From a virus, in the IMG/VR virus record IMGVR_UViG_3300048113_000529, positions 1 through 25,397 of that record: a stretch of 25,397 bases of DNA; one strand, 5' to 3'. Positions 6,037 to 23,888 of this stretch are shown piece after piece (the stretch's first letter is position 1; each line of letters opens with the position of its first letter). Below the pieces are notes generated by a model. The model did not search any database and was not told where the DNA came from. It was given only the letters and a program-made list of their open reading frames with translations. The position numbers and the translations under genes were made by a program.

Positions 6037-6786
6037 TTATTCTCCAATAAAATCTAAAAGGTTAGTTATGATTTGAACGCCAGCATCTCTGGCTTTCTTA
6101 GTTTTAGCAGATTCAACTCCGCTTTCGTTTACTAGGATGGTGACATCCTTGGTCAAACTAGTCTTGACCGCATAACCAAGCTCTTGTAGTTTGTTATGAG
6201 CCTCGGCTTTCGTTTTGTAACTCTTTAGTCTACCACTAATACAAACCGTGCCGTGGGTTATGTTTGTTGTTTGAGTCTTTTCAAACTTGAAGCTAAAAGG
6301 TAGTAAGGATACTTGATAATACTCATTCTCAAGCCATTCACACAAATTAGCCGTAGACTTCTCACCAAGCCCAGCTTGTCGGCACATATCGTAGTCTATA
6401 TCTTCGATGTCTTCGCAGACTTTGGATAGCTTTTCCGATGCTGATTTACCAATGAGAGGTATACTAAATGCAGGTAGCAACACATTAAGTGGAGCACCGC
6501 GAGATCGTTGCAACTCATCTACTAACTTTACAGCAAGTCGCTCTGAGCCTAGGGACTCGGCAATATCTTCTACGCTTCTATCATAAAGTTCCTCTAGGGA
6601 GACAATATCTAGTTTAGCAATAGTAGCAGGGCCGAGACCTTTGATCTTCAAAGTCTTTGCAAAGTGTTCGATAAGTTTTGCAACTTTCTCACCACAGTGT
6701 GGATTTCTACAATACAGAAGATGATTTACACTTTCTAACACCGAACCACAGCTAGGGCAGTTTGTTGGGGCTTCGATCATGGTCAT
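6037..6786 (-). CDS. NAD+-dependent DNA ligase, C-terminal part (zinc finger, HhH, BRCT)
   Basis: 249 residues matching the C-terminal half of bacterial LigA. A four-cysteine zinc finger lies at about 11-32 (CPSCG ... CRNPHC), followed by helix-hairpin-helix repeats (LKIKGLGPATIAKL, and PLIGKSASEKLSKV) and a BRCT domain from about 178 (GTVCISGRLKSYKTKAEA) to the end. These parts hold DNA around the nick. There is no nucleotidyltransferase domain; that lies in the separate upstream gene 6866-7795. The start is ATG 6786 behind GAGGAATCACG. Split NAD+ ligase genes (subunits A and B) are known from T5-like phages. Four bases separate it from the next gene. Confidence 0.93.
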   Translation of the reverse strand: MTMIEAPTNCPSCGSVLESVNHLLYCRNPHCGEKVAKLIEHFAKTLKIKGLGPATIAKLDIVSLEELYDRSVEDIAESLGSERLAVKLVDELQRSRGAPLNVLLPAFSIPLIGKSASEKLSKVCEDIEDIDYDMCRQAGLGEKSTANLCEWLENEYYQVSLLPFSFKFEKTQTTNITHGTVCISGRLKSYKTKAEAHNKLQELGYAVKTSLTKDVTILVNESGVESAKTKKARDAGVQIITNLLDFIGE

Positions 6787-6865: not shown

Positions 6866-7795
6866 TCAATCTAATCTCCTAACAATCCGAGGTATGATCT
6901 CACCAGAGCGGATAACCTCTACCTTACAACCTATTTCGAGATTGAGGTCGCGTATGTACTCAATATTGTGCAGAGTTGCTCTCGATACCGTAGCATCTCC
7001 CACGACCACAGGGTCGAGAATAGCCACTGGACTTACAACTCCGCTCTTACCCAACTGCCATACTACATCTAACAGTGTGGTCTCCACTCCAGATACCTGC
7101 TCTTTCAGAGCAAAAGCACCTCGTGGGTGTTTAGAAGTGTAACCTAATGCATCGAATTTTGCATTTGACTTGAGACGATATACTTTGCCATCCTGAGGAT
7201 AGGCATCTGCTTTAAAGCGAGTAACCACATTTAGACCCATCTTATGCAATAGCTCAAGGCCACAAGCATAATTAGCAGTCCAACTTGGTGTAACATCGTA
7301 TGCTACAAATACTAACGGGCGTTTCTTGAACTCTTCTAGACCCGAAGATCCTTTAAGTCCAAGCGACCCCGAAGCGAAATTACGAGAGTTAGGTACACTA
7401 CTTGGAGCAACAACTTCGCCAGTAATCTGCATGAGTCCAGTATCATTGCACTCATTAGGAACTAACTGACGCATCTTATCTGTAATGTCACGACCTTGAA
7501 TGCCGTCTCCACGAGTGAGAGCGAGTTCAAGGTTGCCGTCAACATATAGAAGAGACACTGCCGCACCATCTAACTTAGGGGTAACAATACATTCATCAAT
7601 AGGCAGAGGAGCATCGTTGAGGTCAAAGCACTTCTGAAGAGAGTACATCTGGTACGCGTGCTTTACAGCATCTGTAACAGTGTAACCCACTTTAGTATAG
7701 TTGTGCTTATCTGCTAGAAGGTCAAATTCCGCATCAGAGATAGCGGGCGTACCTTCGTAGTACAACTGACTCATCTTGTCTAAAAAGCTCTGCAT
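6866..7795 (-). CDS. NAD+-dependent DNA ligase, adenylation and OB-fold part
   Basis: 309 residues. A shortened Ia domain keeps the NAD-binding signature (LYYEGTPAISDAEFDLL, about 11-27). The nucleotidyltransferase domain has the AMP-lysine motif PKLDG with K74, then LTRGDGIQGRDIT (about 93-105), ITGEVV, NSRNFASGSL and the FALKEQ region. An OB fold follows (EIGCKVEVIRSGEIIPRIV). It ends exactly where the zinc finger would begin in a full-length LigA of about 670 residues. Together with the 249-residue partner it would make a compact 558-residue ligase. GGAG lies upstream of ATG 7795. It should seal nicks in replicating phage DNA, using NAD+ rather than ATP. Confidence 0.94.
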   Translation of the reverse strand: MQSFLDKMSQLYYEGTPAISDAEFDLLADKHNYTKVGYTVTDAVKHAYQMYSLQKCFDLNDAPLPIDECIVTPKLDGAAVSLLYVDGNLELALTRGDGIQGRDITDKMRQLVPNECNDTGLMQITGEVVAPSSVPNSRNFASGSLGLKGSSGLEEFKKRPLVFVAYDVTPSWTANYACGLELLHKMGLNVVTRFKADAYPQDGKVYRLKSNAKFDALGYTSKHPRGAFALKEQVSGVETTLLDVVWQLGKSGVVSPVAILDPVVVGDATVSRATLHNIEYIRDLNLEIGCKVEVIRSGEIIPRIVRRLD

Positions 7796-20131: not shown

Positions 20132-20452
20132 TCAAACGGCTCGCTGTGCACCCGTTGCTGCTTCCAGAGTTTTAAGCGTGCTTTTTGGAGCTTTCTCGAG
20201 ACCCGCCAGATGCTCAATTTCAAGTCCCAGATTCTCAGCAATGCTATGACATATCTCACTCTTTGTGACAGGTAGTTCCCCACTTTTGCTAGTGTAGACT
20301 GTTCTTTCATATACTCCCTCCCTACTGAGTTTACCAATTATTGATTTAGTACTCTTGCCTAGCTCATTTGCTAGATGCTCTACTGTTTCCATTTGTGGTC
20401 TATCTTTATATCTTACAGTAATATACTCGGTTTGTTCCTTAGTGTAATTCAT
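20132..20452 (-). CDS. HTH DNA-binding protein, paralogue of 21927-22256
   Basis: 106 residues. An N-terminal HTH is evident (TVEHLANELGKSTKSIIGKL followed by SREGVY), then a linker with SKSGELPVTKSEICHSIAEN and a short C-terminal helical unit (LEKAPKSTLKTLEAAT). The whole plan aligns with the 109-residue protein at 21927: YTxE...TVxxLAxE.xKSTxSIxxKLxREGVY...K.G..PV.K.EI...LEKA.K..L..L. Such proteins are frequent in marine phages but unassigned. Presumably DNA-binding. Confidence 0.85.
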   Translation of the reverse strand: MNYTKEQTEYITVRYKDRPQMETVEHLANELGKSTKSIIGKLSREGVYERTVYTSKSGELPVTKSEICHSIAENLGLEIEHLAGLEKAPKSTLKTLEAATGAQRAV

Positions 20453-21090: not shown

Positions 21091-21119
21091 ATTATACTCG
21101 TACTTGAGAAAAATGTCAA
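21091..21119 (-). promoter_or_regulatory. Perfect consensus promoter
   Basis: TTGACA (21114-21119), 17 bases, TATAAT (21091-21096), driving the 21065-20132 genes up to the terminator at 20045. Confidence 0.88.
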
Positions 21120-21186: not shown

Positions 21187-21211
21187 ATAAAAAAGCCACC
21201 CGAAGGTGGCT
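21187..21211 (-). terminator. Strong intrinsic terminator with TTCG loop
   Basis: Minus-strand AGCCACC, TTCG, GGTGGCT, then TTTTTTAT. No ORF lies between it and the promoter at 21514-21542. Confidence 0.9.
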
Positions 21212-21507
21212 CAGTATTCTTACTAGGGAATTAGGGTGAAAGATAGACCGCCTCGCTATACAATCAGCTACAGAGTAGCACCTCAGTTTTGCTTTTTATC
21301 GGGGAAAGGGAATAAACAAAATACCTACCTAAAACAAACCCTGACAAGATAGGTACTGTCAGACCCCTAACACCATACACTTTAGACAGCACTTGTTAGG
21401 TAGGCTGTGCCAGTACTTCCGCGAGATCAAGACACCAAAGGATTAACTATCACTCAAGCATTGCTACTGGACTTCTCAGATTGGTACTTGCCCAATCTCT
21501 ATTTAAT
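21187..21507 (-). ncRNA. Candidate structured non-coding RNA, about 320 nt
   Basis: Bounded by a perfect promoter (21514-21542) and a strong terminator (21187-21211), with no ORF longer than a few codons between. The predicted transcript starts with a hairpin AGATTGG/CCAATCT (21478-21498, 7-base loop). A 9-bp long-range stem CCTACCTAA/TTAGGTAGG joins 21396-21404 to 21324-21332, enclosing a hairpin CTGACA/TGTCAG (21341-21362). A second pairing of CTGTC with GACAG (around 21356-21389) competes with that hairpin. It may be a trans-acting RNA or a leader; the family is unknown. Confidence 0.6.
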
Positions 21508-21513
21508 ACAAGT

Positions 21514-21542
21514 ATTATACGCAGATTTAACCAAAGTGTCAA
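21514..21542 (-). promoter_or_regulatory. Perfect consensus promoter without downstream ORF
   Basis: TTGACA (21537-21542), 17 bases, TATAAT (21514-21519). It begins just after the stop of the 21546 gene and leads into the candidate RNA. Confidence 0.88.
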
Positions 21543-21837: not shown

Positions 21838-21927
21838 TTAGCCTCCTAATAGCATAATAAATAAAGGAAAAGAGAATAGCGTGGCTACAAACCACGCTAG
21901 TCCATTGTATCGCTCTGCTACTGACAT
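21838..21927 (-). CDS. 29-residue single-TM peptide
   Basis: MSVAERYNGLAWFVATLF followed by SFPLFIMLLGG. Its ATG overlaps the HTH stop as TAATG and its end carries the ribosome site of the next gene. The frame also contains a 7-bp hairpin (21878-21898). It may be real or a translated attenuator. Confidence 0.5.
   Translation of the reverse strand: MSVAERYNGLAWFVATLFSFPLFIMLLGG
21878..21898 (-). terminator. Stem-loop after HTH gene, possible attenuator
   Basis: Minus-strand AGCGTGG, 7-base loop, CCACGCT, then ATTCTCTTTT, about 30 bases after the stop of the 21927-22256 gene. Confidence 0.5.
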
Positions 21928-22256
21928 TATCGTGCCTGAATAAGAGCAAGTAGGTTTTGCAGATCAGCTTTAGAAGCCTTCTCAAGAGTAGGGAAACCTC
22001 CCTGAGCACCAAGCTCAGTCTGAATCTCAGCTACAATCTCTGCTTTGCGTACTACTGGAGTACCAGTTTTAGTTACTCGTGGAGCTGCAACATAAACACC
22101 TTCGCGTACTAGCTTTGCAACGATTGAACGAGTGCTTTTGTTGAACTCAGACGCTAGTTTTGCAACTGTGTCTTTTGTTGGGTTATCTTGGTAGTCAGCA
22201 ACCATTGCGTCAACCATTTCGTCAGTGTAGTTAGGGGTTCTTTTTACTTCAGTCAT
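21927..22256 (-). CDS. HTH DNA-binding protein, paralogue of 20132-20452
   Basis: 109 residues from ATG 22256 behind GGGAGAAAA; a longer frame would run through the promoter at 22302. The N-terminal HTH is TVAKLASEFNKSTRSIVAKL followed by VREGVYV; the C-terminal unit ends LEKASKADLQNLLALIQ. The two units are joined by a basic Pro/Thr linker (APRVTKTGTPVVRKAEIV). Probably an abundant DNA-binding protein. Confidence 0.85.
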   Translation of the reverse strand: MTEVKRTPNYTDEMVDAMVADYQDNPTKDTVAKLASEFNKSTRSIVAKLVREGVYVAAPRVTKTGTPVVRKAEIVAEIQTELGAQGGFPTLEKASKADLQNLLALIQAR

Positions 22257-22651: not shown

Positions 22652-22680
22652 ATTATACGTGGAGTTAAGTACCTTGTCAA
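22652..22680 (-). promoter_or_regulatory. Perfect consensus promoter at the edge of the repeat array
   Basis: TTGACA (22675-22680), 17 bases, TATAAT (22652-22657), driving the 22334-22606 gene. Confidence 0.88.
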
Positions 22681-22788
22681 ATGTTTTTTAAGCAATTGTC
22701 GAAAATAAACGCAACTTAATTCCGGGGGGCCGGACACGACCTCGGCGTGTCAAGAATTATTTGCCCAAATTGTCAAAAATTATCATAA

Positions 22789-22817
22789 ATTATATCGCAC
22801 CCGCCCAGGTTTGTCAA
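22789..22817 (-). promoter_or_regulatory. Perfect consensus promoter, leftward, inside the array
   Basis: TTGACA (22812-22817), 17 bases, TATAAT (22789-22794). Two further TTGACA copies lie downstream at 22771-22776 and 22748-22753, 23 bases apart, without good -10 partners. Confidence 0.75.
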
Positions 22818-22863
22818 GACTAGACTTAATTTGCCCGAATTTGCAGCAACTCGCAAAAAGTAC

Positions 22864-22893
22864 TTGACAGCGCAAGCTGGAGTACTGTATAAT
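22864..22893 (+). promoter_or_regulatory. Promoter of repeat module I, first copy
   Basis: TTGACA (22864-22869), 18 bases, TATAAT (22888-22893) on the plus strand, with no gene downstream on that strand inside the window. Confidence 0.7.
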
Positions 22894-22957
22894 CGGCGCC
22901 ATTTTGAGCAAGACTTGACCAAACGGCATTTAATTGGTGCCCGGTCACAAAAAAGAC

Positions 22958-22986
22958 TTGACAAGTTCGCTCGCGTACTGTAAAAT
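22958..22986 (+). promoter_or_regulatory. Promoter of repeat module I, second copy
   Basis: TTGACA (22958-22963), 17 bases, TAAAAT (22981-22986). Shares GTACTGTA and AATCGGCGC with the first copy. Confidence 0.6.
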
Positions 22987-23252: not shown

Positions 23253-23279
23253 GCTAAATGAGAATGGTTCTCATTTAGC
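23253..23279. repeat. 12-bp perfect inverted repeat over the PPK2 stop codon
   Basis: GCTAAATGAGAA, TGG, TTCTCATTTAGC. The right arm contains the last codons and the TGA of the PPK2 gene. No T tract follows on either strand; it may protect the mRNA 3' end in series with the terminator. The AATGAGAA...TTCTCATT core resembles a Fur box, probably by chance. Confidence 0.75.
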
Positions 23280-23888
23280 TAAATAATTATTTAAGCGCGT
23301 TATAAATTCCAATCTGCCCGCTTTTTTATCGTCATAATTTACAGAGTGCCATTTTCCGCAATTATTAAATACAGTCTCTTTTGCAATTGTATATTCATCA
23401 TATTGCGCAATCGCTTTTTTGTCGTTCGGTGACATTTTCCAATATTTTAGCGGTGATAATTCGCGTTCCGTCAGTCGAGAGATTTGTTCGCGCTCCGAGA
23501 TTGAGAGCCACATTTTTATAAAAGTAACATTTTGGGATTTCTCCCAATCTAAAACCCTAGCCATAAAATTGCGATATTGTTTATCAGAACACCAGTTATT
23601 GATTTTTTGGCACATTGCGCGAGAATACCACGACCGATCATAAAAAACAATTTGACCCTGCTGAGGCATTTTGTCTGCCCAATAGCCTAGCCAGTTAGCC
23701 ATTACCGATGGGCTAGGTTTATTTGATAGGCAAACGCTAAACCATGCCGGATTTAGATATTGCGTCAATTCGCGGATAGTACCAGATTTTCCGGCCGAGT
23801 CCCGGCCTTCTAAAATAACAGCAATTGGCTTGCTGTTATTTTCTGCCAGTTTGTTCAGTCTAGCTTGCTGAGTTTCTAAAGCGTTCAT
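23271..23888 (-). CDS. PPK2-family polyphosphate kinase
   Basis: 205 residues. The three PPK2 signatures are in order: Walker A ILEGRDSAGKSGTIRELT (about 26-43), Walker B FYDRSWYSRA (about 82-91), and the lid/C-terminal part LKYWKMSPNDKKAI (about 146-159), then a YDDKKAGRLEFI block. PPK2 enzymes transfer phosphate between polyphosphate and nucleotides, often making NDP/NTP from NMP/NDP. Lengths above about 230 are usual, so this is a compact, single-domain form. Subclass cannot be told. Its ATG overlaps the exonuclease stop as ATGA. In a phage it could draw on host polyphosphate for nucleotides. Confidence 0.9.
   Translation of the reverse strand: MNALETQQARLNKLAENNSKPIAVILEGRDSAGKSGTIRELTQYLNPAWFSVCLSNKPSPSVMANWLGYWADKMPQQGQIVFYDRSWYSRAMCQKINNWCSDKQYRNFMARVLDWEKSQNVTFIKMWLSISEREQISRLTERELSPLKYWKMSPNDKKAIAQYDEYTIAKETVFNNCGKWHSVNYDDKKAGRLEFITRLNNYLAK

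Follow-up and report, generated by a model that had tools for sequence, protein, structure and literature searches.

The transcription unit and its neighbourhood

The window, the whole 25,397-nucleotide stretch analysed here, is a 25.4-kb virus record of a T5-like phage. It carries the T5-like markers family A DNA polymerase, D5-like regulator and two-gene NAD-dependent ligase, and its DNA polymerase is approximately 45% identical to those of cultured Demerecviridae. The two ligase genes (6037-6786 and 6866-7795, minus strand) have one promoter each. A polyphosphate kinase 2 (PPK2) gene, here in a T5-like phage, is located at 23271-23888 (minus strand); PPK2 matches number only 15 among 50,697 phage records, every one below 60% identity. 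Two genes for small proteins resembling part of the D5-like transcription regulator (20132-20452 and 21927-22256, minus strand) flank a unit on the same strand which runs for about 315 nt from promoter to terminator and contains no conserved open reading frame (ORF).

The promoter of this unit (TTGACA-17-TATAAT, 21514..21542, minus strand) matches the consensus at 12/12 positions and would place the start of transcription near 21507. An intrinsic terminator (21187..21212, minus strand) consists of the hairpin GAGCCACC-TTCG-GGTGGCTT (21212-21193) and a T-run, and the next gene has a separate promoter beyond it (21091..21119, minus strand; 12/12 matches). A sequence-only reading of the window had pointed out the perfect first promoter, leaving its strand unstated, the TTCG-loop terminator, the lack of an ORF between the two and the next operon's own promoter, and all four hold. 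The window contains 13 exact-consensus promoters, so a single one proves little, and it is the promoter-terminator-promoter series that is the remarkable part. Consensus promoters also cluster on both strands of a short non-coding stretch at 22652-22986 (minus strand at 22817 and 22680; plus strand at 22864 and, with one mismatch, at 22958).

The longest ORFs in the unit, both beginning with GTG, encode 42 aa (minus strand) and 38 aa (plus strand). The 42-aa frame is shortened to 20 aa in the homologue in contig L005, frame-breaking indels separate homologues of the unit, and no reading frame is conserved among them. ARAGORN found neither a tmRNA nor a tRNA in the window. The single-sequence folding energy is ordinary (z -0.19 for the window, -0.95 for L005), and the case for a structured RNA therefore rests on comparison rather than stability.

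Relatives and the fold of the conserved core

The unit recurs, with the same neighbours, in a further 16 contigs of uncultured T5-like phages, all of them metagenomic, which makes 17 contigs including the window. The RNA occurs as one copy per genome at a fixed place beside genes for small D5-like DNA-binding proteins. An upstream promoter matching at least 10 of 12 consensus positions is present in 15/17 units, the other two being cut by contig ends; a script detected the terminator in 15/17 (it missed that of L091, and L100 is cut). A downstream promoter is present in 16/17, the remaining unit, L100, being cut off, and this argues against a leader and for an RNA that stands on its own. The downstream gene itself varies between units and is either a 57-aa MKYELSQ-like gene or the FP gene.

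These relatives were collected by several routes. A search with a neighbouring protein located L005, whose copy of the RNA shows 78% identity along most of the sequence and has the same neighbours. A conserved 16-nt word gave 15 matches, among them L007, L008, L011 and L015; ten others (L009, L010, L012-L014, L016-L020) were rejected by inspection and blastn. A 20-position pattern added L026. The pattern matches L021-L025, from another search, were rejected in the same manner. Three pattern matches in genome contigs gave no covariance-model match. Searching with a profile built from the SANT-like/D5-like protein encoded downstream yielded 47 T5-like loci, in which nhmmer and the covariance model R1, built on seven seeds, identified L027, L028, L029, L032, L036, L040 and L070; run against 52 sources, R1 produced 14 matches with E<=1e-5, seven of them non-seeds. 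The RNA is present in 11 of the 47 loci (L027-L033, L036, L039, L040, L070), several of which are re-cut copies of contigs already counted. The last pattern matched 50 stretches, comprising five loci already known (L008, L011, L015, L026 and L006, the last being the same contig as L005), four re-cut copies of contigs known to carry the RNA (L097, L108, L121, L132), 38 stretches with no convincing match to R1 or R2, and three new loci, L091, L094 and the truncated L100, which were added with the help of model R2. R2 gave one match apiece in 13/50 records and 3/13 whole records, and matched 0/8 cultured T5-like genomes. Close relatives sought in the 50,697 phage records were absent or limited to terminator-sized matches, and a search of plasmids gave none.

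The conserved core, defined by the extent of the R2 match, occupies 21235..21409 on the minus strand as a single copy (E 2.2e-29, the window being one of R2's seeds). Coordinates below refer to the minus strand, and percentages to cells paired in alignment A8 (15 sequences; L007, whose 5' end is cut, was excluded from A5 and A8, and L100 from all alignments). At its 5' side, hairpin P2 (ACAGC/GCUGU in the window, 21386..21408) is 97.8% paired with double-sided changes in three pairs, and its loop, CCUAAC, pairs with GUUAGG to form P3 (21366..21400; 87.6%, four double-sided pairs), so that P2 and P3 make up an H-type pseudoknot. An almost invariant linker, UAAAGYGUAUGG, occupies 21373..21384, and its UGGY may pair with RCCG in the loop of P4; in A8 this predicted contact is paired in 88.5% of cells, with double-sided changes in two pairs. 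P4 itself (CUGACA/UGUCAG, 21341..21362) has an inner helix that is 98.2% paired and an outer helix that is 78.5% paired without double-sided changes. P6 (UUUUG/CAAAA with inner UUUA/UAAA, 21287..21321) is made of helices 6, 7 and 8, which are 96.4%, 81.0% and 86.7% paired and contain five double-sided pairs. A single-stranded GAGG junction (21281..21284), found in 14/15 sequences of A8, leads from P6 to P7 (GCUAC/GUAGC, 21267..21279), a hairpin of variable sequence with double-sided changes in five of its six pairs. The last of the core hairpins, P8 (AUAG/CUAU, 21243..21259), is paired in 100% of cells with three of four pairs changed on both sides and displays a purine-rich AGGNGG loop, CGAGGCGGU. 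The terminator stem lies outside the conserved core and varies freely.

Double-sided changes are therefore spread over P2, P3, inner P4, P6, P7 and P8. Standard pairs make up 89.2% of the 604 pair cells in A8. The alignment contains 95 double-sided compensatory cells against 32.1 ± 4.4 in shuffles, none of 500 of which reached 95; these figures are to be read in the light of a structure set by hand and by eye on the same sequences, of an alignment made with R2 that hence leans to its structure and counts, and of related rows, which inflate shuffle tests. In control counts with the pairing partners displaced by one to three columns, 13 to 34 double-changed cells remained. In alignment A3, made with MAFFT without structure from seven sequences, 13 pairs of the hand-set structure carry double-sided changes, compared with 7.2 in shuffles (0/500). 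Six relatives found by a model or profile built without them (L028, L029, L032, L036, L040, L070) gave new compensations, for example a G-C to C-G change in P2. Across the aligned units, comparison shows a predicted structure that is conserved while the sequence drifts, and no conserved ORF. This is the opposite of homologues that keep an ORF and lose the pairs, the outcome by which the sequence-only reading had proposed that its candidate could be refuted.

The covariance search suggested by that reading thus recovers the core in relatives, with compensation well above the shuffled level, and the Rfam scan that it also suggested matched no family. Its fold fares less evenly. The three structures it listed do exist in the sequence of the window, and the CTGACA/TGTCAG pairing around which it saw alternative inner pairings is the P4 helix, where a C-G pair in the window is replaced by U-A in L005; the pseudoknot of the core was not listed. 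The 9-bp long-range stem is complete (9/9 pairs) in the window only, each of the other 14 sequences forming 2 to 8 of the pairs, and shows no covariation, 65.5% of its cells being paired compared with 64.3% in shuffles.

Variable 5' parts and larger RNAs in the same slot

The 5' part of the unit is variable. The 5' hairpin described in the earlier reading (AGAUUGG/CCAAUCU, 21478..21498, minus strand) is present in the window and is replaced by other hairpins in relatives. It is followed by a domain closed by P1 (CCAGUA/UACUGG, 21410..21470, minus strand; seven-sequence alignment) with a conserved internal motif, GAGUGAU...UUGAUCUC, that by eye appears k-turn-like. The P1 domain is missing or replaced in L011, L026, L028, L029 and L036, with simple closing stems forming the 5' part in L011 and L026. 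In L036 a tRNA-Gly gene stands immediately 5' of the core, and in L032 a tRNA-Met lies between core and terminator. The 5' hairpin of L027 (3941-4000) has 90% identity across 60 nt with the hairpin that intervenes between the pieces of a permuted tmRNA in L052 (2335-2394) and L060 (94-153).

Permuted tmRNA (RF04321) scored over the cut-off in 9/50 records and in a further 1/9 records. Two-piece tmRNA genes of this kind lie at L043 2580-2911, L044 2651-3029, L046 2638-3017, L047 2844-3227, L052 2237-2605, L061 3243-3619 and L094 1846-2158; tmRNA in two pieces has been described before, in marine phages (PMC9004378). The encoded tags in these T5-like contigs include ANDDVYSLAA, GNDDIYDIAA and GNDDIYDMAA. 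In L046 and L044 a long conserved stretch follows approximately 150-190 nt past the tag, pairing CAUACUGGG...CCCAGUAUG, before a tRNA-Cys gene. Mutual exclusion between the RNA and permuted tmRNA, which had been suggested by 13 and 9 records without overlap, is refuted by L094, in which the RNA, a permuted tmRNA and a tRNA-Trp lie side by side.

In contigs with no R2 match, the slot before the FP-motif gene is often taken by a larger ORF-poor promoter-terminator unit of about 450-650 nt (L043 3882-4390, L046 3690-4200, L047 3812-4390, L052 2815-3270, L061 3924-4400, L071 3800-4385, L049 3838-4480). A 3' domain common to 12 of these larger units is 96.9% paired, with 35 double-changed cells against 12.0 in shuffles. 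Rfam applied to six tmRNA-bearing loci returned tmRNA and tRNA only. R2 scores the L052 slot weakly, at E 0.98 over 614 kb and 8.4e-4 when the slot is searched alone, a search chosen after the first result had been seen; on the L066 slot it gave nothing convincing (best E 0.48). The reciprocal model R3, of the larger type, found no window-type slot among 42 sources (best E 0.74, elsewhere) and reached a best E of 0.25 on cultured T5-like genomes. A hairpin with an AGGNGG loop is present in 20/26 slot RNAs compared with 5.3 expected, in a test that was picked after the motif had been seen and whose rows are related.

Common descent of the larger slot RNAs and the window RNA is, on these comparisons, unproven, with one weak match and one failed cross-test. 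A broader proposal would make the window RNA one form of a superfamily with an old core, an equally old 3' AGGNGG hairpin and an exchanged 5' part, serving an RNA-based takeover of host translation; we consider this speculative and rather improbable. If true, it would place such RNAs in most phages of an uncultured T5-like clade, at one fixed genomic slot and with 5' parts swapped with tRNAs and tmRNA segments, as a phage RNA class without a described counterpart.

Possible roles and comparison with known RNAs

We propose that the unit is a free-standing, trans-acting structured non-coding RNA gene of a T5-like phage, a reading to which we assign a probability of roughly 85%; the figure covers the free-standing, trans-acting structured RNA and excludes any role in translation. 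The earlier reading had likewise preferred a free-standing structured RNA to a leader, and the 16 further contigs, the compensations above shuffles and the separate downstream promoter bear this out. A host-type (sigma-70 type) promoter would drive the RNA, which would work in trans as a folded object, its variable 5' module presenting or protecting the conserved core. That a pseudoknotted RNA is kept by a phage group despite sequence drift means that it must have a role.

The place of the gene beside tRNA and tmRNA genes, and the modules it has in common with them, suggest that it targets RNA metabolism or the machinery of host translation. We put this forward tentatively, as the likeliest of the roles considered and yet an idea more likely to fail than to hold. 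The exchange of modules with parts of tRNAs and tmRNAs that occurs in nature nevertheless gives a testable lead towards translation. Anti-Shine-Dalgarno pairing was looked for in the 26 slot RNAs, where the runs were mostly no longer than in shuffles (the lowest fractions of equally good shuffles being 0.06 to 0.11).

It is possible, although we lean clearly against it, that the RNA is a decoy or inhibitor of a host protein such as a nuclease, RNA polymerase or a defence protein. The host-type promoter would suit such a function, as would the display of conserved unpaired elements in a rigid fold (the UAAAGYGUAUGG linker, the AGGNGG loop and the k-turn-like motif). The same almost invariant 12-nt linker and the other conserved unpaired segments could instead be the sites at which an antisense small RNA base-pairs with messages of the phage or its host. 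This is unlikely, as duplex energies calculated against 37 start regions of genes in the window are no better than those of shuffles, which were equally good in 52/60 cases for the full RNA and in 47 to 100 of 100 for five segments. A multimeric RNA-only assembly in the style of GOLLD or ROOL would account for the pseudoknot, for a variable 5' part joined to a conserved 3' core and for tRNAs in or beside the unit, features that recall those RNAs as described in PMC12286853; this too is improbable for an RNA that is far shorter (about 315 nt) and has no match to GOLLD or any other Rfam family.

If the unit were a 5' leader or riboswitch that controls the next gene through an attenuator, the terminator behind the structured region would be explained, and the alternative pairings of the earlier reading look switch-like. 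However, a riboswitch is co-transcribed with the gene it controls, and here a separate promoter is predicted past the terminator, a strong promoter of the next gene's own that recurs in every downstream region not cut off. Furthermore, the terminator stem varies freely outside the core, the competing 9-bp stem lacks covariation and the gene that would be controlled differs between units, and we regard a leader as very unlikely. A decayed protein gene or intergenic filler with a chance promoter and terminator agrees with the ordinary folding energy and is hardly credible given the compensatory changes, the position conserved in 17 contigs and the frame-breaking indels between homologues.

The free-standing RNA proposed here was compared with known families and described phage RNAs. 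An Rfam scan of the window gave no family at its gathering score, and relaxing the threshold to E 10 for the unit gave seven chance-like matches, ROOL not among them. The GOLLD model (RF02032) scored over its cut-off in 0/28 records, the window included, its best match (E 0.17, 7.6 bits) being in G039 only, and the permuted tmRNA model (RF04321) has no match in the window. Our literature search, in which journal coverage was partial and which is hence not proof that the RNA is unpublished, returned no account of it. Related phages encode permuted tmRNA near the same slot, and in L094 it adjoins the RNA, whereas the window core has neither a tag reading frame nor tRNA-like ends. The window RNA is neither GOLLD nor tmRNA.

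The abundant ORF-less transcript of phage ICP1 is similar by description, being likewise a long non-coding RNA of a phage with a role given as unknown, although at approximately 800 nt it is longer than the 315 nt seen here (PMC7567579). Several large RNAs, GOLLD and ROOL included, still have no settled role. GOLLD, whose function is given as unknown, is similarly phage-encoded and structured, with a conserved 3' and a variable 5' part and tRNAs near or inside it, but it exceeds 800 nt (PMC12286853). ROOL is likewise a phage RNA with pseudoknots found near tRNA islands, and differs in being longer than the window RNA, which has no Rfam match (PMC12286853). The window RNA can accordingly be viewed as a covariation-supported relative of GOLLD and ROOL in way of life, one whose total length of about 315 nt and core of about 175 nt make it more tractable for expression, probing and structure determination than the 600-800 nt examples.
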